The translations under genes were made by a program, and so were the position numbers. From the IMG/VR virus record IMGVR_UViG_3300017963_000253, positions 1-64,000 of that record: a stretch of 64,000 nt of DNA, one strand, 5' to 3'. The first letter of the stretch is position 1. Each line of letters opens with the position of its first letter. This DNA is from a virus. The notes under the pieces are model-generated. The model did not search any database and was not told the DNA's origin. It saw nothing but the letters and a program-made list of their open reading frames with translations. Shown here one piece after another: positions 38,304 through 58,847 of this stretch.

Positions 38304-38615
38304 ATGGATATCGAAAAGGCGTTGACCCCTTCTGAGACCTGGGACCTGTTGAAGGCCGGGAAGCTCTACATGGACTTCGAGGGCGACGTTCCCCTCCACG
38401 TTTGGAGCGTGGAGAACGACCGCTTCTTCCGTTACCCCGGGGAGCGGGTCTACGTCGAGAGCGAGGACGGGTGGAAGACCCTTTGGGTCAGGCAAAAGGT
38501 GAGGTCGATCTGCAGAGGTGCCAGCGGAGACGGGGTTGTCTTGAACTTCAAAAACCACAACGGAGCCTCCGGGTGGTACCCGTGGCAGAACGTGCGGCTC
38601 GAGGTGGGAAAGTGA
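38304..38615 (+). CDS. Hypothetical small protein
   Basis: A 103-residue product with AAAGGG upstream. It shows W-D-L-L-K-A-G-K near the N-terminus and a compact Trp-rich strand region (VPLHVWSVENDRFFRYPGER). The stop overlaps the GTG of the recombinase. No known domain. Probably co-transcribed with the recombinase. Confidence 0.6.
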   Translation: MDIEKALTPSETWDLLKAGKLYMDFEGDVPLHVWSVENDRFFRYPGERVYVESEDGWKTLWVRQKVRSICRGASGDGVVLNFKNHNGASGWYPWQNVRLEVGK

Positions 38616-39319
38616 AGTATATCGGGTATATACGCGTATCGACGCTAGACCAAGCCCGGACGGGCGTCTCCCTCGCGGACCAGGAGGAGAAGATCCGTCA
38701 GTACGTGGCGCTCGCGGACGGGGAACTCGTGGACGTTATCCAGGACGGGGGGCGGAGCGGGAAGGACCTCGACCGGGAAGGGGTCCAGGAGGCGTTCTCC
38801 CGGGTCCTGAACGGGGAGGCGGACGTCCTAGTGGTCTACGCCATCGACCGCCTCTCTCGTTCCGCTCTGGACCTCCTGCAGCTGGTCTCGAAGCTTAGGG
38901 ACGGGAAGCGGGGGTTCGCTTCCGTCCGGGAGCAGATGGACTCAACTACGCCCCACGGACGGTTCACGATGACGATCCTCGCGGCGGTCGCGGAGATGGA
39001 GCGGGAGATGATTCGCTCCCGCTGCCGCGACGCCTCCGCGCGCTGCGTTCGGGACGGGCGGGTCTGGGGGAAGGTCCCCTTCGGCTACCAGAGGGACCGG
39101 GGTGGGAAGCGCCTGATCGAGGACCCCGTCGAGATGGAGGTCCTCCGCGGGATCCTGTCTCTCCGGGACGCGGGGTACAGCTACGCGAAGATCGCCGCCC
39201 ACCTGAACCGTCGCGGTCGGGGACCGAAGATCGGCGCGCGCTGGTACCCCTCCTCCGTTCGCTCCGTCGTACTGACCCACCAAAAGTACCGCGAGGTTCG
39301 TAGCTTACGAGAGGGTTGA
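38612..39319 (+). CDS. Serine recombinase (resolvase/invertase family)
   Basis: A 235-residue product starting at GTG 38612 (GTGA overlap). Residues 4-20 are I-G-Y-I-R-V-S-T-L-D-Q-A-R with the catalytic Ser at position 10; A-I-D-R-L-S-R follows near 77 and A-E-M-E-R-E near 128, all family motifs. The end has a short recombinase-type helix and an HTH (Y-S-Y-A-K-I-A-A-H-L-N-R). It is larger than Hin (about 190) and much smaller than large serine integrases (over 450). It could invert, resolve or integrate DNA; no obvious att or crossover site is seen. Confidence 0.84.
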   Translation: MKYIGYIRVSTLDQARTGVSLADQEEKIRQYVALADGELVDVIQDGGRSGKDLDREGVQEAFSRVLNGEADVLVVYAIDRLSRSALDLLQLVSKLRDGKRGFASVREQMDSTTPHGRFTMTILAAVAEMEREMIRSRCRDASARCVRDGRVWGKVPFGYQRDRGGKRLIEDPVEMEVLRGILSLRDAGYSYAKIAAHLNRRGRGPKIGARWYPSSVRSVVLTHQKYREVRSLREG

Positions 39320-40736: not shown

Positions 40737-41684
40737 ATGAAGCCTGAAGAGACGCTCGTCCTCGGGGCCGGTCCCGTGGGCTTGATTGCGGCGGAGATCC
40801 TGGGGGCGCGCTACGTGGTGGGGAAGGATCCCGGGGGTTCCAAGACCCTTCGCAACCTGGCTCCAACCTACCTCTGGTGGACCCCCTCTGTGGAGCGCTT
40901 CCTCCTGGATCTTGGGCTGAATTGGGGATCTCGCTGGGTTAAGTTTGGGTGGCTTTGCTCGGGTGAGGTTAGGGACGCCCCCTCCGAGGCGGACTTGAAG
41001 AGCTATTACCGGCGTAGCCGCGGGGGCGTCTCCGGGAAAGTACCCTCCTCCGTGGCCTCCTCCGGGAAGCCGGGGGAGATCGAGGTCTCCAGCGTTCCCC
41101 TGGAGCAGATAATCGACCTTCTCTTGGAGAGGAACCTGATTTACGAGATGGAGGTGGAGTCTATCTTCCACTTGGGAACGGTGATCCGGTTCAATCAATC
41201 CCCGACGGTGGAGTTCCCCGCTACTACGTTGGTCAACACGCTCCCGAGGTCGGTCTTCTGTGAGATGATATTCCCGAAGATGGAGTTCCCACCGGAGGCA
41301 AAGGCGGGTTGGAAGACCTTCGTAAGTGGGGACGCCTACACTAGTGCGTTGGACCGGGTATGGGAGGAGCGGGAGCTTGACTTCCTCTACGTAGCGGACG
41401 AATCGCTCCCGTTCGAGCGCGTGAAGTTCCTGCATGATTCCTGGAAGAACGAGAGGTTCGTCTACGAGTTCAACGCGGTGTCAGTCCCGCCGGAATTCCT
41501 GGATCTGGTCCATGGGAAGCAGGTTTACTCCGCGCCGCTGCAGATCTCGGAGGTCTCCACCCGTCCCAGGGTGGAGGAGTTGGGGGGTAGGGTCCGGAAC
41601 GTCGGGCGGTTGGCGCGGTGGGATCACTCTATCCGCCTTCACGACGTGATAGAGGAACTCTATCGCTGGAGGGATGTACGATGA
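40737..41684 (+). CDS. FAD/NAD(P)-binding oxidoreductase-like protein
   Basis: A 315-residue product. The N-terminus shows a Rossmann dinucleotide motif (L-V-L-G-A-G-P-V-G-L-I-A-A-E) followed by a hydrophobic strand. The rest (T-P-S-V-E-R-F-L-L-D-L-G-L, then S-V-P-L-E-Q-I-I-D-L-L) resembles flavin amine-oxidase or mutase-like folds without a clear active-site signature. It heads a row of nucleotide-metabolism genes and overlaps the MazG-HAD gene (ATGA). It could act on a nucleotide or sugar, but the substrate cannot be inferred. Confidence 0.62.
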   Translation: MKPEETLVLGAGPVGLIAAEILGARYVVGKDPGGSKTLRNLAPTYLWWTPSVERFLLDLGLNWGSRWVKFGWLCSGEVRDAPSEADLKSYYRRSRGGVSGKVPSSVASSGKPGEIEVSSVPLEQIIDLLLERNLIYEMEVESIFHLGTVIRFNQSPTVEFPATTLVNTLPRSVFCEMIFPKMEFPPEAKAGWKTFVSGDAYTSALDRVWEERELDFLYVADESLPFERVKFLHDSWKNERFVYEFNAVSVPPEFLDLVHGKQVYSAPLQISEVSTRPRVEELGGRVRNVGRLARWDHSIRLHDVIEELYRWRDVR

Positions 41685-42628
41685 AGGACGCGTTGGAGGA
41701 GATCTTCGAGACCCAGACCGCGTTCAACCGGAGGTTCTTCGCGGATCGTGGCTTGGACCTGGCGGAACTCTCCGGAGCGGACCGGGCGCAGTGGACGAAG
41801 CAATTCGTCCTCCACGTGGAGGGGGAGCTTCACGAGCTACTCCGGGAGACGAACTGGAAGATGCATCGCCTGGAGGGGAAGCGGGTCAACCGGGGGAACG
41901 TTCTGGAGGAGTGGACGGACTGCTTCAAGTTCCTGCTCGGGCTCGCCAACGTCTGGGGGTTCTCCGCCTCCGAGGTCCTGGAGGAGTTCCGCCGGAAGTC
42001 CCGGGTGGTGGACTACCGTTACGGGATGGAGCAGCGTCTCCGGGCGATCTCTCCGGGGAGTCCGGTGGTGGCGGTGGACATCGACGGGGTTCTGAACGAC
42101 TACCCAGGTTGCTTCCTCCGCTGGGTTTCCCCCCCAGCTGAAGAACCGTTCGAGACGCTTGCGGCGCTCCGGGAGAAGGTGGGTCCCAAGCGGTACCGGG
42201 AGATCAAGGACGAGTACCGGAAGAGCGGGGCGAAGCGGGAGCAGGGGGTTCGACCCGGTGCGCGGGAGATGCTCAACGGACTCCGCGCCGCCGGTTACTC
42301 CGTGGTCCTACTATCCAAGCGTCCCTACTGGCGGTTCTACCGGATCTACGCGGATACGCTGGAGTGGCTGGAGCGGAACGGGCTCCGCTGCGACGCGGTC
42401 CTCTTCCACCGGGAGAAGCACCGGAAGATCCTGGAGGACTTCCCTAACCTTATCGCGATGGTGGAGGACGACCCCGCGGTGGCGCGGGAGATCCTCTCCA
42501 TCGGGGTGGAGGTCTTCTTGGTAGAGGGGGAGCTGAACGTAGGGGCGGAGGTACCCGGGGCAAACAGAATTTCCAACGTCGCGGACGTCGTGACGGAACT
42601 GGAGGAGATTGGGTATGAGTCACGATAG
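41681..42628 (+). CDS. MazG/dUTPase-like pyrophosphatase fused to HAD phosphatase
   Basis: A 315-residue product starting at ATG 41681 (an upstream start would overlap the previous gene). Residues 1-115 look like the all-alpha NTP pyrophosphatase fold: H-V-E-G-E-L-H-E-L-L, then V-L-E-E-W-T-D-C-F-K-F, with acidic metal ligands. Residues about 130-315 form a HAD-type domain: V-V-A-V-D-I-D-G-V-L-N, then S-V-V-L-L-S-K-R-P, and E-D-D-P. Such a fusion could convert nucleoside triphosphates to monophosphates and further dephosphorylate them. The GGAGGAG near its end serves the next gene. Confidence 0.75.
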   Translation: MKDALEEIFETQTAFNRRFFADRGLDLAELSGADRAQWTKQFVLHVEGELHELLRETNWKMHRLEGKRVNRGNVLEEWTDCFKFLLGLANVWGFSASEVLEEFRRKSRVVDYRYGMEQRLRAISPGSPVVAVDIDGVLNDYPGCFLRWVSPPAEEPFETLAALREKVGPKRYREIKDEYRKSGAKREQGVRPGAREMLNGLRAAGYSVVLLSKRPYWRFYRIYADTLEWLERNGLRCDAVLFHREKHRKILEDFPNLIAMVEDDPAVAREILSIGVEVFLVEGELNVGAEVPGANRISNVADVVTELEEIGYESR

Positions 42629-43736
42629 AGTAGAGGAGATCCGGAAGTTGCGACGCCTGATGGGAACCGCTCCAGAGGCGGAGCCTGAGTTCGAGACGAA
42701 GTTCTACCGCGGGGTAGAGGGGATCCGCGTGAAGCTGGTAGATGGACCTCGGAACCCCTACCGGGCGATGTACGCGATGGGGGTCTCTACCTGGGGGCAT
42801 ATTCACTCTTTAGCTACTGACCGTTGGGAGGATACACCGCCGGAGGCCCGGGAGGCGGTAGTCCGGGCGGTCCTAGGGTTTAACGCCCTCCCGCTAGCGA
42901 TGGAGGCCCCGAAGTTTACGTTCGAGGTCTATAACCTTACGCGGTGGAGCTTCGATCAGATCGCCCGCGCGCGGATCGGGGCGGTCTTCGCTTCCCTCGG
43001 GACGCGGGATAACAACCATTTGGGGATCCCCTTCCGGATGCACGAGGCGACTTGGAGGAACGAGTCGAAGCGAGGTCTCTTTGTGGGCAACGCCAAGAAC
43101 GCCAAGGACGCGTACCGGACGTTGGTGGAGAGTGGGAGGGGGAGTTGGCAGGAGGCGCGGACGTTCCTCCCGATCTCGGTGGTCCATCGCTTCACGATGT
43201 CGATCAACTTCCTTGCCCTCCGGGGGATGTGCGCCCGGAGGATGACCTTCTCGGAGGCGGAGGACACTGTTGCGGTGGCGTGGCTCCTTCGAGACCGTTT
43301 GATGAAGGCGGACGCCTACCCGCTTCTCGCCGCCCATCTTCGACCCGCTTGTGACGGCGCGGGGACCTGCCGGTATCACAAGGCTCACACGATTTCAGAG
43401 GCCTTTGGGTGTCTTTTCAAGAGCTGTGGTCGACACCCGGTGAAGAGCGCCCCCGGGAACCCGGATTTCGATTACGAGTATGCGGACTTTAACGTCAGTT
43501 GTTCGGACCGAAAGACGATTCAGGATCAGCTGCAGATTTCGATCCCGGAGCGGACCATGGATCCTGACAAGGTGGAACTTACTTCCCGCGACCGTTTCCT
43601 CTTAGGATTTCAGGCTCAGAATGAGGAGGAGTTTGAAGATTGGAGGTGGTACGCGCAGGCGGAGAGAGGGGTGGATGCAAACCCGTTCCCCCTCCCGGAT
43701 TCCGGGGCTGCAGTTGAACCGGTGGACCTCCCGTGA
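42615..43736 (+). CDS. Divergent ThyX-family protein with Cys-rich C-terminus
   Basis: A 373-residue product starting at ATG 42615 behind GGAGGAG. The ThyX plan is recognisable: K-F-T-F-E-V near residue 108, a helix with F-D-Q-I-A-R-A-R-I-G, and later A-Y-R-T-L-V-E-S-G, A-R-T-F-L-P-I and R-F-T-M-S-I-N. The family signature RHRxxSxNExSxR is changed to R-A-R-I-G-A-V-F-A-S-L-G-T-R, so catalysis on dUMP may differ. After residue 250 come C-D-G-A-G-T-C and then C-L-F-K-S-C-G-R-H, a likely metal site not typical of ThyX (210-260 residues). Possible modified-pyrimidine synthase. Confidence 0.65.
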   Translation: MSHDRVEEIRKLRRLMGTAPEAEPEFETKFYRGVEGIRVKLVDGPRNPYRAMYAMGVSTWGHIHSLATDRWEDTPPEAREAVVRAVLGFNALPLAMEAPKFTFEVYNLTRWSFDQIARARIGAVFASLGTRDNNHLGIPFRMHEATWRNESKRGLFVGNAKNAKDAYRTLVESGRGSWQEARTFLPISVVHRFTMSINFLALRGMCARRMTFSEAEDTVAVAWLLRDRLMKADAYPLLAAHLRPACDGAGTCRYHKAHTISEAFGCLFKSCGRHPVKSAPGNPDFDYEYADFNVSCSDRKTIQDQLQISIPERTMDPDKVELTSRDRFLLGFQAQNEEEFEDWRWYAQAERGVDANPFPLPDSGAAVEPVDLP

Positions 43737-44269
43737 TCCGCGCGCTGGAGGGGGTGAACTTCGTCGGGAAAAGTACGGCTACTAATCTTCTCTCTGTGGA
43801 GTTTGGTTTTCCTGTTTATTCGGATCCTGGAAGGCATGGATTGTTTGAAGATTGGTTAGTTCCGTTTTCTCCGCGTGAATGGCAGGTTCAAGGGACTCAA
43901 AATGCATTAGCTAGTACAGTGTTTTCCAACTGGGTAGACGTAATTTTGGATCGCTGGATCCTCTCGAATTTGGTTCACGATGAGGAGCGGGGATTGAAAA
44001 TCCCGGACCGCGTTATCTGGAAAATTTTGGAGTTGACTGATAATGCGAGGGTGTACCTCCTACATGCGGATCTTTCGGTGGTGTTGGAGCGAGCGGAGGA
44101 GCGTGGTGTGGTAGTAACTGATTCGCTCCGGGATACGATATTCAAGCGGGCAGAAGCCTTTCTTCGTTGGGCCACCGTTTTGGATTCTTACTATGGGGTC
44201 GAAGTTTATCTCGTTAACGCAAACTGGAGTAGTGGAGAGGTTTTCGATGCGATATATCGTAACTGGTAG
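43733..44269 (+). CDS. Deoxynucleoside monophosphate kinase-like protein
   Basis: A 178-residue product, GTG start overlapping the ThyX-like stop. Residues 5-16 are a P-loop, L-E-G-V-N-F-V-G-K-S-T-A, as in thymidylate kinase. D-R-W-I-L-S-N near 72 resembles the D-R-Y/H motif, and R-A-E-E-R-G near 118 suggests a lid. It would phosphorylate a nucleotide, possibly the product of the ThyX-like enzyme. The DNA is clearly less GC-rich than that of its upstream neighbours. Confidence 0.7.
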   Translation: MIRALEGVNFVGKSTATNLLSVEFGFPVYSDPGRHGLFEDWLVPFSPREWQVQGTQNALASTVFSNWVDVILDRWILSNLVHDEERGLKIPDRVIWKILELTDNARVYLLHADLSVVLERAEERGVVVTDSLRDTIFKRAEAFLRWATVLDSYYGVEVYLVNANWSSGEVFDAIYRNW

Positions 44270-45254
44270 CAGTGGGATGCTGGGTCATGTCTTGGACGAG
44301 ACCCTTCGGTCCCTGGGTCACGAGCGGTTGATCCCGAGCGGTCGGAACTGGAAGAGCCCTTCCACCGGGGAGATAGAGCCGGACTTCCGGGACCCTGTAT
44401 ATCTTCGTTGGCTGGAGGGGGCGAACGTGGACGTCTTCTTCCACGCCGGGGCGTTGGTGGGGACGACGCGATGTGAGGCGCACGCGGAGGATGCCTGGAG
44501 CTGCAACGTCGAGGCGGTCCGGAGGATCGCGGATATCCTCTCCCGGCGACGGATCTACACCGTCTTCTACGCCACTGCTGCGGAGATGGAGCCGGGGGAG
44601 TATGGGTTGGACCGGCCTATCGACGTGGGACGGACCCCCCGGAACCCGCTTACCCGTTACGGGATTACGAAGTTGGCGGGGCGGGAGTTGATGGAGGTCC
44701 TTTTCCGGGAGCGTGGTGTGGAGGAACTCCTTCTCCAGGTCTATCCTAGCTTTGGCTTCGGAGGGGCGCGGGACGGGAACTCCTGTGTGGCCGACCTTCT
44801 GAAGTGTGCCCTCGGGGTTTATGACCGCAGACCCTTCCTCCCGCTCGCCCCGGAGAACATCAAGGAGGTCACACCGCACTCCTACATCGCGGAACTTTCC
44901 GTCCGCGCCGCGGAGCGACGTCTCTCTGGGAAGATTCCTATCGCGTCTGGGGTCTGGACCCGTTACGCGGAGATCGTGGAGATGGTCGAGGATGTCACCG
45001 GGGAGAAGTTGGACCCGGAGTGGCGTGCGGACCTGGACTACAAGGGGGACTTCTTACATGTACGGGAGGACGTCTTCTCCTTGGCAGAGGATCTGGGGGT
45101 TCCGGTCCTGACGCGGGTGGAGATCAAAGCGGCTCTCGTGGATGAGATGAACGGGATCCTGAACGCGGAGGGTGCCGGGGTGATGGCGAATCACGAGTGG
45201 CGGTTCGCGGAGAAGCTTGTGGAGGCGTTCCCGGGTTGGGAGGGACGTAGATGA
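44247..45254 (+). CDS. Extended SDR epimerase/dehydratase (RmlD-like)
   Basis: A 335-residue product, ATG 44247 overlapping the kinase gene by 23 bases with GGAGAGG upstream. The N-terminus carries T-G-S-S-G-M-L-G (NAD site), and R-Y-G-I-T-K near 137 holds the Y-x-x-x-K pair. V-F-F-H-A-G-A follows the usual third strand. It matches dTDP-4-dehydrorhamnose-reductase or NDP-sugar epimerase-type proteins. Sugar or nucleotide-sugar processing is implied; whether for a DNA modification or envelope change is unknown. Confidence 0.76.
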   Translation: MRYIVTGSSGMLGHVLDETLRSLGHERLIPSGRNWKSPSTGEIEPDFRDPVYLRWLEGANVDVFFHAGALVGTTRCEAHAEDAWSCNVEAVRRIADILSRRRIYTVFYATAAEMEPGEYGLDRPIDVGRTPRNPLTRYGITKLAGRELMEVLFRERGVEELLLQVYPSFGFGGARDGNSCVADLLKCALGVYDRRPFLPLAPENIKEVTPHSYIAELSVRAAERRLSGKIPIASGVWTRYAEIVEMVEDVTGEKLDPEWRADLDYKGDFLHVREDVFSLAEDLGVPVLTRVEIKAALVDEMNGILNAEGAGVMANHEWRFAEKLVEAFPGWEGRR

Positions 45255-45934: not shown

Positions 45935-46343
45935 GTTGGAAACGATAGATTTTGAGAGAGTTCAACCTGGTAGAGTTTACTTTCATTACTTGGATTTGGA
46001 GGAGTATCACGCCGGGTTTTGGAAGTCTGTTTACAATCGGGATATTAAGGCGCGCTTGACTGCTACTTCGGTTAAGATTTTGCGGGATCGGGATATTTTT
46101 AGTGGTGCAGTTCAACGTGTGATAAAGGAGTGGCCAAACTCTTGTCTAGCGGAATTTACTGCTCCTGGAAATCACAGGGCTTGGTTGGGTCAGGCTGCGT
46201 GCTGTCTCGTTGCTGGTGTTCCGGAGAACCTGACTCGGTTAGCGTGGTGGAAGTTAACTGAGGTCCAAAGAATCGCCGCTAACGATATTGCGGAGATTGC
46301 TATTCGAGATTGGAGGATAAGACGTGTTGAAACGAAGACTTGA
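45927..46343 (+). CDS. Unknown protein of the ParB/PAPS-reductase cassette
   Basis: A 138-residue product between the IbrB-like and IbrA-like genes, overlapping both by 8 and 20 bases. It contains a central DIFSGAVQRVIKEWPNSCLAEF stretch and then H-R-A-W-L-G-Q-A-A-C-C-L, with paired Cys. No family is recognised. It shares the low G+C content and close spacing of the flanking genes, so it is part of the module. It could be a partner or immunity factor; function not known. Confidence 0.7.
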   Translation: MSRLETIDFERVQPGRVYFHYLDLEEYHAGFWKSVYNRDIKARLTATSVKILRDRDIFSGAVQRVIKEWPNSCLAEFTAPGNHRAWLGQAACCLVAGVPENLTRLAWWKLTEVQRIAANDIAEIAIRDWRIRRVETKT

Positions 46344-47556
46344 GATCAACGTCTTGGAGGCAGCTCGGGAACGGATAGCGCGGGTTTTCGACGATTTTGA
46401 GAGAATTTATGTGGCGTTTAGTGGGGGTAAGGACTCAACTGTGATGATGCACTTGGCGTGTGAAGAGGCACGCCGTCGGGAGTGTAGAGTTGGGATCTTA
46501 ATGGTGGATTTGGAAGGTTACTTTGAAATCACGGTGAAACACTGCGTTGAAATGTTTGAAATGTACGCGGATGTGATAGAGCCGTTTTGGATTTGTCTTC
46601 CGATTCACCTTCGTAATGCAGTGAGTGTGTTTGAGCCGTTTTGGGTTTGTTGGGATCCTAAAGCAGAAGGGGCTTGGGTTCGACGACCTCCAAAGGAAGC
46701 GATTGTTGATTCAGGGTACTTTCCTTTTTTCCGTGAAGGTATGGAGTTTGAGGAATTTGTGCCGCTATTTGGGGATTGGTACGCAGATGGGAAGCGGTGT
46801 GCGTGTCTTGTGGGTATCCGCACGGACGAGAGTTTGAATCGCTTTCGAACAATTGCGATTTCCCAAAAGGAGAGATTTGAGGGTCTTTCTTGGACGACGA
46901 AGATCACCAAGGATCTCTATAACGTATACCCTATTTACGATTGGTCTGTTGAAGATATTTGGGTATATCACGCGAAGTTTGGAGATAAGCCTCACAATCG
47001 GCTGTACGATTTGATGCACCAAGCGGGTATGACGCCTTCCCAGATGCGAATTTGTCAACCTTATGGAGACGATCAAAGGCGTAACTTGTGGCTATTTCAC
47101 ATTATCGAACCTAAGACTTGGGCCAGGATTGTTGCACGTGTGAATGGTGCTAATGGGGGAGCACTTTATATTCAGGAGTGGGGAAATATTAATGGTTATC
47201 GAAAGATAACTAAACCTGTTGGGCATACTTGGAGAAGTTTCTCAGAACTCCTCGTGGCTTCGATGCCAGAAAAGTCAAAGATTCACTATCGTAACAAGAT
47301 CCTTCTTTTTGAAAAGTGGTGGACAGAGCGTGGTTACCCTGAAGGGATTCCTGATGAGGCGGATCCACGAATGGAGGCTAATCGCAAAGCTCCAAGTTGG
47401 CGGAGAGTATGTAAATCGTTACTTAGAAACGATTATTGGTGTAAGGGACTTGGATTTAGTCAGCAGAAGAGTGCTGCCTACAAGGCTTACTTGGAGTTGA
47501 TGAAGCGGCGGAAGAAATCTTGGGGTGTCAGTGATGTTAAGTTGGGGTTTGTATGA
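46324..47556 (+). CDS. PAPS-reductase-like protein, IbrA/DUF3440 type
   Basis: A 410-residue product, GTG start. S-G-G-K-D-S-T at residues 33-39 is the PP-loop ATP-pyrophosphatase motif, followed by V-M-M-H-L-A. V-G-I-R-T-D-E-S-L-N-R-F-R near 160 and I-Y-D-W-S-V-E-D-I-W-V near 202 match the IbrA/PAPS-reductase family. The C-terminal part (Y-R-N-K-I-L-L-F-E-K-W-W) corresponds to the DUF3440 extension. It may activate a substrate by adenylation and transfer sulfur or act on nucleic acid. The low G+C content continues to its end. Confidence 0.82.
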   Translation: MLKRRLEINVLEAARERIARVFDDFERIYVAFSGGKDSTVMMHLACEEARRRECRVGILMVDLEGYFEITVKHCVEMFEMYADVIEPFWICLPIHLRNAVSVFEPFWVCWDPKAEGAWVRRPPKEAIVDSGYFPFFREGMEFEEFVPLFGDWYADGKRCACLVGIRTDESLNRFRTIAISQKERFEGLSWTTKITKDLYNVYPIYDWSVEDIWVYHAKFGDKPHNRLYDLMHQAGMTPSQMRICQPYGDDQRRNLWLFHIIEPKTWARIVARVNGANGGALYIQEWGNINGYRKITKPVGHTWRSFSELLVASMPEKSKIHYRNKILLFEKWWTERGYPEGIPDEADPRMEANRKAPSWRRVCKSLLRNDYWCKGLGFSQQKSAAYKAYLELMKRRKKSWGVSDVKLGFV

Positions 47557-57600: not shown

Positions 57601-57993
57601 ATGGACGCTTCTGTGAATAAGGTCATTTTGATCGGGCGGCTGGGAACGGACCCGGAACTCCGGTACTTTGACTCCGGGAAGGCGCTCTGTAACTTCTCCC
57701 TGGCGACTAACCGGAGTTGGAAGGACCGAAACGGGGAGAGTCAGGAGCGGACGGACTGGCACCGTATCGTAACCTGGTCGCGACTTGCGGAGAACTGCTC
57801 CAAGTACCTGGAGAAGGGAAGGAAGGTCTTCGTGGAGGGGCGTCTGGAGACCCGGAACTGGGAGGACGAGGAGGGGAAGCGTCACTACATCACGGAGGTG
57901 GTGGCGAGCAATGTACTCTTTCTCGGCGGCGGGAGCGTTAACGAGGGACCTCCTCCGACGCAGGAGGAATTGGACGAGGACCTTCCCTTTTGA
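57601..57993 (+). CDS. ssb: Single-stranded DNA-binding protein
   Basis: A 130-residue OB-fold SSB. Residues 5-110 contain the family pattern: [26 protein letters not shown], then W-H-R-I-V and [10 protein letters not shown]. The C-terminus ends in D-E-D-L-P-F, the conserved acidic tip that recruits partner proteins. The length is short but typical for phage SSBs. The MTase gene begins in the stop codon region. It coats ssDNA during replication and repair. Confidence 0.94.
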
Positions 57994-58847
57994 GACTGAA
58001 GCAATCCATTTGCCCGGGGTACGTTTGGGAGGACCCGGAGGGTCTGCACCTGATCGCTTGCGGGGACTTCCGGGACCCGGGCCTGCTTCGCGGGCTCCTG
58101 AAGCGGTTCGGGGAGGAGGAGTTCCAACTCACGCTCGCGGATCCTCCCTACGCGGTGGCATCGGAGAAGCAGCGGATCCAGTTGGAGGGGCGTAAGGACC
58201 AGTTCCTGACGGAGAAGTGGGACCTCCTGACACCGGAGGAACTGAGAGACCTCCTCGTTCGTCTGTGTCTGGAGGTCACGCGGGTTACTCCCGCCGGGAA
58301 CGTCTGGATCTGGACCTCCGACTGGTACGTCTCGGAGCTGAAGTGGGAGCTGAAGCGTCTCGGACTCCGGGTCTGGCCCACCTACGTCTGGTGCAAGTCC
58401 AACCCACCTTGGCAGGTCCGGAAGTCGAACCCCGCCTCCGCCTGCGAGTTCCTGGTGATGGCCAGCAAGAAGGGGAACTATTTTGAACTAGACGCCCTCC
58501 CGAAGCAGCGAAACTGGTTCGTTGCCTCCGCGTCCGGGGAGTTGGATTACTCCCCTGCGGTCTCCCCCTACTGGGTGGAGCGCCCGGTGGTTCACGCCGC
58601 GGAGCGCCTCCGGAAGGTGGGGGAGAAGGAGTTCCTGAATCGCGCCCAGAAGCCGCTAGACGTGACGGAGGCCCTTGTTCGCGCCGGGTGTCCGGAGGGT
58701 GGTTTGCTCCTGGACCTCTGCGGGGGGACCGGAACAGGGTTACTCGCAGCGGAGCGGACGGGTCGCCGCTGCGTCTACGTGGAGAAGGACCCAACGCAGG
58801 TGCGGGCGGCGGGACGCCGCCTCCTGGAGGAGCGGAGGAATGGTTAA
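57990..58847 (+). CDS. DNA methyltransferase (N6-adenine/N4-cytosine class)
   Basis: A 285-residue product with a TTG start overlapping the SSB stop (TTGA). L-A-D-P-P-Y near residue 48 is the catalytic D-P-P-Y motif, followed by a target-recognition-like middle, and D-L-C-G-G-T-G-T-G near 235 is the AdoMet motif. This motif order (catalytic before AdoMet) is that of beta-class methyltransferases. No cognate restriction gene is seen, so it may be an orphan used for self-protection. The target sequence is unknown. Confidence 0.86.

Follow-up and report, generated by a model that had tools for sequence, protein, structure and literature searches.

The window, as we call the whole 64,000-nucleotide stretch of viral DNA analysed here, carries a gene for a divergent ThyX homologue within a run of genes on the same strand (Table 1). 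The genes for a flavoprotein-like protein (partner 1), a two-domain protein with a HAD phosphatase part (partner 2), the ThyX-like protein and a kinase-like protein overlap one another, which gives the group an operon-like arrangement. Partner 1 has no match in Pfam, and its fold comes from a structural model (pLDDT 87.4) that aligns with 4dsh (Z 20.0 over 304 residues). It features a GxGxxG motif by the N-terminus and a GRxAxW motif by the C-terminus, and G10, G12, G290 and R291 are invariant in an alignment of 37 family sequences. Based on the model, we regard partner 1 as a predicted flavoprotein with the fold of the UDP-galactopyranose mutase superfamily, with FAD binding and mutase activity being putative. 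Partner 2 scores above the cut-off for PF08761 dUTPase_2 (28.4 against 22.9 bits), matches phrog_415 (49.6 bits) and stays below the cut-off for PF06941 NT5C (21.1 against 24.8 bits).

Table 1. Positions of the ThyX-like gene, its sequence features and its neighbours in the window.
Feature	Position	Strand	Description
Partner 1, flavoprotein-like, 315 aa	40737..41684	+	UDP-galactopyranose mutase / protoporphyrinogen oxidase fold (model)
Partner 2, MazG/dimeric-dUTPase-like domain fused to HAD phosphatase (NT5C/PNKP-like)	41681..42628	+	
Divergent ThyX homologue	42615..43736	+	ATG-started open frame, 373 aa; AlphaFold model has the ThyX fold
Rebuilt ThyX signature RARIGAVFASLGTR	42966..43007	+	Residues 118-131; residue-by-residue counts in 13 ordinary and 56 Cys-tail sequences
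C-terminal Cys cluster	43350..43427	+	C246-x5-C252, C266, C271
P-loop nucleotide kinase, thymidylate-kinase-like	43733..44269	+	4-base overlap with the end of the ThyX-like gene
NAD-dependent epimerase / RmlD-like reductase	44247..45254	+	PF01370, 51.3 bits

The kinase-like protein matches phrog_761 (40.2 bits), scores below the cut-off for PF02223 (20.2 against 27 bits) and has counterparts at four related loci (L004, L006, L010 and L023). Counterparts of the epimerase/RmlD-like gene occur at L003 and L004 and were not seen in other clades, and we are unsure whether this gene belongs to the cassette. Between the cassette and the polymerase gene lies a PAPS-reductase/DUF3440 protein (46324-47556), a possible sulfur-handling partner. 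A serine-recombinase-like gene with Resolvase and Recombinase domains (38402-39319) is found beside the replication genes, and the window phage may therefore be temperate.

The window protein is a real, if distant, ThyX homologue. It matches the Pfam Thy1 family with 37.5 bits (cut-off 24.8) and reaches only 18.9 bits against the ThyX equivalog model TIGR02170, under the cut-off of 87.9. Searched alone against PDB sequences it gave no match, and a profile of five sequences retrieved ThyX only at an E value of about 0.5, so that recognizing the fold required a structure search. An AlphaFold model built on 44 related phage sequences (pLDDT 88, pTM 0.89) has clear PDB matches exclusively among ThyX structures, such as 3gwc (Z 16.8 over 207 residues) and 1o26 (Z 15.4 over 202 residues). 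The model also has a helix at the N-terminus and, predicted with less confidence (pLDDT 59-78 around residues 251-300), a Cys-rich part at the C-terminus.

The first-pass annotation had described the canonical signature as missing and a Cys/His tail as present, and both descriptions hold. The signature region, RARIGAVFASLGTR, does not conform to RHRxxSxNExSxR: alanine replaces the histidine of RHR and glycine replaces Ser88, while the equivalents of Arg78, Arg80 and Arg90 are retained. The following residue, 132, is an aspartate where ThyX has the lid tyrosine. The Cys-rich part begins past residue 245 and includes CDGAGTC (residues 246-252) and CLFKSCGRH (residues 266-274). An identical protein (100%) is encoded on a second contig (L002), and relatives at 58-67% identity and down to 35% retain the changed signature as well as the cysteines of the tail. 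Since the second contig is identical and the relatives keep the changes, these are not errors, and an assembly or frameshift artefact or a sequencing error can be ruled out.

Searching viral contigs and phage records, we found relatives that fall into three groups. G1 is the family of the window protein and reaches down to 35% identity; G2 comprises proteins of actinophages, for example Onyinye, PHTowN and Wentworth; and G3 those of Pbunavirus, Wifcevirus, Carpasinavirus (FoX7) and Myosmarvirus (WR01). All 56 aligned members carry the C-terminal Cys cluster, and we refer to them as Cys-tail proteins. C246 and C252 are among the invariant residues in an alignment of 44 sequences; a third tail cysteine lies at variable distance, and G1 has a fourth. 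A further cysteine in G1 is at residue 296 of the window protein (43500-43502). The tail cysteines are a probable binding site for zinc or an iron-sulfur cluster. Neither the Cys tail nor the histidine losses described below are confined to the window protein; they are found even in such well-known phages as Pbunavirus.

A tree that also included 13 ordinary ThyX sequences from phages or archaeal viruses separates the Cys-tail proteins from these by a branch supported at 95/94, or at 97/95 when the tails of nearly all members are removed. Because the branches are long, a single origin is likely rather than proven. Two scans of genome contigs found no cellular relatives, so the clade looks viral within the data searched. 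In one member (L028:6989-8443), an intein-like insert follows the sequence RMKF within the conserved R174 motif of the ThyX-like gene; such an insertion site is typical of essential enzymes. In the literature searched, we found neither the clade nor its cassette described, nor any account of which bases these phages contain; papers on thymidine hypermodification or base-modification prediction may mention them.

We next compared active-site residues between the 13 ordinary ThyX sequences and the 56 Cys-tail sequences, using T. maritima numbering unless M. tuberculosis (Mtb) is stated. H53, the histidine of the EH motif and H79 are present in 12-13 of the 13 ordinary proteins and in none of the 56 Cys-tail proteins. 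Position 91 is a tyrosine or phenylalanine in 13/13 ordinary proteins (phenylalanine in three), but alanine or aspartate in 56/56 Cys-tail proteins; the window protein has Leu92 at the position of H53 and Asp132 at that of Tyr91. Conversely, R78, R90, R147 and R174 are retained in every Cys-tail protein and correspond to R118, R131, R182 and R209 of the window protein. H53 stacks on flavin and folate (PMC11940539). dUMP is activated by R174, and Y91 has been proposed as the general acid; any one of the substitutions S88A, R90A and Y91A makes methyl transfer much slower (PMC8316439). In the M. tuberculosis enzyme, for which residue roles have also been described, this tyrosine (Tyr91/Tyr108) screens the reactive carbon from solvent (PMC6514825).

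The groups differ at further positions. Mtb Arg87 is retained in G1 and G2 and is a lysine in G3. Position 88 is glycine in G1, and G2 and G3 keep serine or threonine. The FAD-holding Arg190 of Mtb ThyX is replaced by alanine, leucine or methionine in G1 and is present in G2 and G3; at the position of Mtb Ser71, the window protein has Leu94, and G2 and G3 have serine or threonine. As the FAD-binding arginine and the Ser/Thr residue are retained there, G2 and G3 proteins could still bind FAD. Across the clade, the pattern of residues indicates that the means of holding and activating the nucleotide are retained and those of handling folate and flavin are lost.

A search of 17 genomes for Thy1 and ThyA genes identified four G1 relatives (G001, G003, G004 and G005) with two Thy1 genes each, a divergent one (44-52 bits) and an ordinary one (158-163 bits). 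The latter reads GHESILEH...RHRIAAYTQESQRF or a close variant. That an ordinary ThyX is encoded elsewhere in the same genomes is the strongest evidence against regarding the divergent protein as simply the thymidylate synthase of the phage. The window's own record (75 kb, which may be incomplete) contains the divergent gene only, with no ThyA gene and no PF00303 match. Likewise, apart from the Cys-tail gene, neither a ThyX nor a ThyA gene was found in the G2 and G3 phages searched, and for this reason the Cys-tail protein could still supply thymidylate in these two groups.

The cassette is conserved along with the protein. Both the flavoprotein and the HAD partner are present at 52 of the 60 Cys-tail loci, a count that takes in near-identical Pbunaviruses and relies on partner HMMs partly trained on the counted loci. 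At the other eight loci (PHTowN, four further G2 loci and three contig ends), the DNA ends early; in PHTowN, the flavoprotein is annotated just beyond the examined piece, and at L037 and L028 the initially missing partners were found once more flanking DNA was included. Neither partner was found near any of the 12 ordinary ThyX loci whose flanking sequence extends over kilobases (0/12). All three clades have homologues of the flavoprotein; the one in G3 is an unannotated gene upstream of the "thymidylate synthase". Given this recurrence and its absence from the 12 ordinary loci, the flavoprotein can be ruled out as a chance neighbour.

Some loci carry additional genes. In L010, a ThyA-superfamily protein (31.4 bits) adjoins the flavoprotein, and a second neighbour is ThyA-like by eye without a Pfam match (L010:696-1340 and L010:2202-2783), so that there the cassette is shared by ThyA- and ThyX-fold proteins. 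The same locus also encodes a dCMP deaminase-like gene, as read by eye. In Wifcevirus, Myosmarvirus and FoX7 (L013:9634-10959, L014:10328-11728 and L016:9751-10965), the cassette is followed by a short-chain dehydrogenase and a glyoxalase-like protein, which may tailor the product; Pbunavirus LMA2 has neither gene at that position.

Taken together, the canonical ThyX in four relatives, the loss of the histidines and the tyrosine, and the conserved cassette give good support to the view that the chemistry of this enzyme differs from that of ordinary ThyX. This part of the first-pass proposal of a changed substrate or product stands; nothing specifically favours the hydroxymethylated pyrimidine that it had named as an example. 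For the product, an altered pyrimidine of phage DNA can reasonably be inferred from indirect evidence: the dUMP-activating arginines, the neighbours resembling nucleotide enzymes and the restriction resistance of relatives discussed below. We favour, with a probability of roughly 0.58, a nucleotide-level pathway in which C5 of a pyrimidine deoxynucleotide destined for phage DNA would receive a substituent other than methyl.

Our observations cover the fold, the residues lost and those retained, the clade, the cassette and the second ordinary ThyX of relatives; from them we infer a substrate, a tail cofactor, a division of labour, a product and a base in virion DNA as follows. The protein would be a paralogue with the ThyX fold that has given up ThyX-type synthesis of dTMP. 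It would bind a pyrimidine deoxynucleotide, most likely dUMP, whose C5 the retained arginines would activate as a nucleophile. The residues that position folate and flavin (H53 and H79, and in G1 also the FAD-holding serine and arginine) would have been dropped together with the Tyr91 acid and lid, and a Cys cluster gained at the C-terminus. With the partner flavoprotein, the enzyme would attach a non-methyl group to C5, yielding a modified dUMP that the kinase would phosphorylate; the MazG/dUTPase-like and HAD phosphatase domains would remove the canonical competitor, and the polymerase would insert the new base. Two precedents make such a split between the ThyX-like protein and the flavoprotein plausible, namely the covalent adduct at flavin N5 in UDP-galactopyranose mutase (PMC8316439) and the modification of uridine at C5 by MnmEG (PMC9626948). 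A more specific version, in which a metal- or Fe-S-bearing ThyX-fold enzyme and the mutase-like flavoprotein together create a new C5 substituent on dUMP and hence a new class of base modification, is tentative and somewhat short of an even chance.

Other readings share parts of this pathway. The tail cysteines might form a structural zinc site only, with the flavoprotein doing the base chemistry and the ThyX-like protein presenting dUMP; this overlaps with the favoured pathway and differs in which protein performs the chemistry. The C-x5-C motif with its further cysteines would suit such a site, and the same precedents of the mutase flavin N5 adduct (PMC8316439) and of MnmEG acting at uridine C5 (PMC9626948) would suit a flavoprotein in the leading role, yet we consider the reading unlikely. 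A special case of the favoured pathway, with the product named, is that the exocyclic methylene of dUMP still forms and that, with the lid tyrosine gone, water replaces hydride to give 5-hydroxymethyl-dUMP. Phages with hydroxymethyl-pyrimidines purge canonical nucleotides through dedicated phosphatases. The solvent-shielding Tyr91/Tyr108 (PMC6514825) is, moreover, replaced in 56/56 proteins. However, with H53, H79 and, in G1, the FAD-holding serine and arginine lost, delivery of the methylene is doubtful, and the Cys cluster and the constant flavoprotein would be left unexplained, so that we judge hydroxymethylation quite improbable.

We are slightly more sceptical still of a divergent but ordinary thymidylate synthase that makes dTMP with different residues while its partners serve other nucleotide steps. 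The ThyX fold, the annotation as thymidylate synthase in public records and the lack of another ThyX or ThyA in the checked G2 and G3 phages speak for it. Against it stand the canonical ThyX in four G1 genomes and the loss of Tyr91 and His53 in all members; a single S88A, R90A or Y91A substitution already slows the reaction strongly, and G1 has lost both S88 and Y91. Least credible is a non-catalytic regulator or decoy that binds dUMP or dTMP, for instance to control pools or to inhibit the host ThyX. Although the nucleotide-holding arginines are retained and much of the cofactor site is lost, the strong conservation including the invariant cysteines, the constant flavoprotein and the intein-like insert in the conserved core of L028 suggest an enzyme, and we give this reading very little weight.

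Published data on restriction of phage DNA bear on the favoured C5 modification. Wifcevirus has published restriction resistance, but EcoP1_I is still effective. Of 16 restriction enzymes, the DNA of Pbunavirus AA20 withstood 10; HindIII and MspI did cut it (PMC11945000). JG024 DNA was cut by SacII (PMC3008698). The AA20 sequence PP916316 (66-kb genome; L074 and L075) encodes the cassette and contains sites for 14 of the 16 enzymes, with counts of 38 for EcoRI, 30 for Eco32I, 15 for PaeI, 12 for PstI and 12 for SalI. With 10 enzymes resisted and only two lacking a site, some enzymes with several sites must have failed; the argument rests on enzymes with at least four sites and is weak for those with 1-3 (KpnI, BamHI, BglII, XbaI and HpaI). 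Since HindIII and MspI cut Pbunavirus DNA and SacII that of JG024, a modification, if there is one, must be non-bulky or incomplete. The resistance of Wifcevirus and Pbunavirus fits base modification, as a correlation, and our literature search found no report of a modified base in any cassette phage. The frequent EcoRI (38) and GATATC (30) sites in PP916316 suggest that these palindromes are not avoided. The window also encodes a DNA methyltransferase (57990-58847; phrog_67, 92 bits), which might likewise protect the DNA of its phage from restriction.

These results define a new ThyX variant that is widespread in phages and lies within a conserved cassette. This "thymidylate synthase" gene is probably present in hundreds of sequenced phages, among them Pbunavirus used in personalised therapy, and the residues of the clade imply that it should not synthesize thymidylate in the known way. 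The gene probably makes an altered DNA base, also in therapy phages. If the cassette does make a new base, this would explain the restriction resistance of Wifcevirus and Pbunavirus; the annotation of the gene as thymidylate synthase would be the reason why the modification has escaped notice in Pbunavirus, Wifcevirus, actinophages and uncultivated phages. The ThyX branch would then join a base-modification chemistry hitherto built on ThyA, and a widespread annotation would be corrected.

Compared with ThyX/FDTS (PF02511, TIGR02170; T. maritima TM0449 and M. tuberculosis ThyX), the window protein shares the fold (Z 15-17), the equivalents of R78, R80, R90, R147 and R174 and the glutamine before RHR. 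It differs in lacking H53, the EH histidine, H79 and Y91, and its group, G1, in lacking also S88, Mtb Ser71 and Arg190; it adds the N-terminal helix, the Cys tail and constant partners, and an ordinary ThyX coexists with it in four relatives. The phrog_35637/phrog_85 "thymidylate synthases" (Onyinye gp86, PHTowN gp46, Pbunavirus LMA2 gp59 and Wifcevirus WFH_00064) belong to the same clade and share the missing histidines and lid tyrosine, the Cys tail and the flavoprotein and HAD partners. Those of G2 and G3 keep Ser/Thr88 and the FAD-holding arginine, whereas G1 has moved further and has more tail cysteines. Partner 1 shares its fold with UDP-galactopyranose mutase, protoporphyrinogen oxidase and amine oxidase over nearly its full length (12% identity), along with the GxGxxG and GR motifs, but it is shorter, matches no sequence family and has relatives only in phages among the data searched. 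The known pyrimidine-modification pathways of the SPO1 (hmU), T4 (hmC) and SP-15/phiW-14 (thymidine hypermodification) types use ThyA-superfamily enzymes; the window protein, having the ThyX fold, is not a pyrimidine hydroxymethylase of that superfamily (PF00303), and we know of no phage pyrimidine-modification pathway with a ThyX-fold enzyme. In the cassette, as in these pathways, a putative base-carbon enzyme would stand beside kinase-like and predicted nucleotide-purging enzymes.
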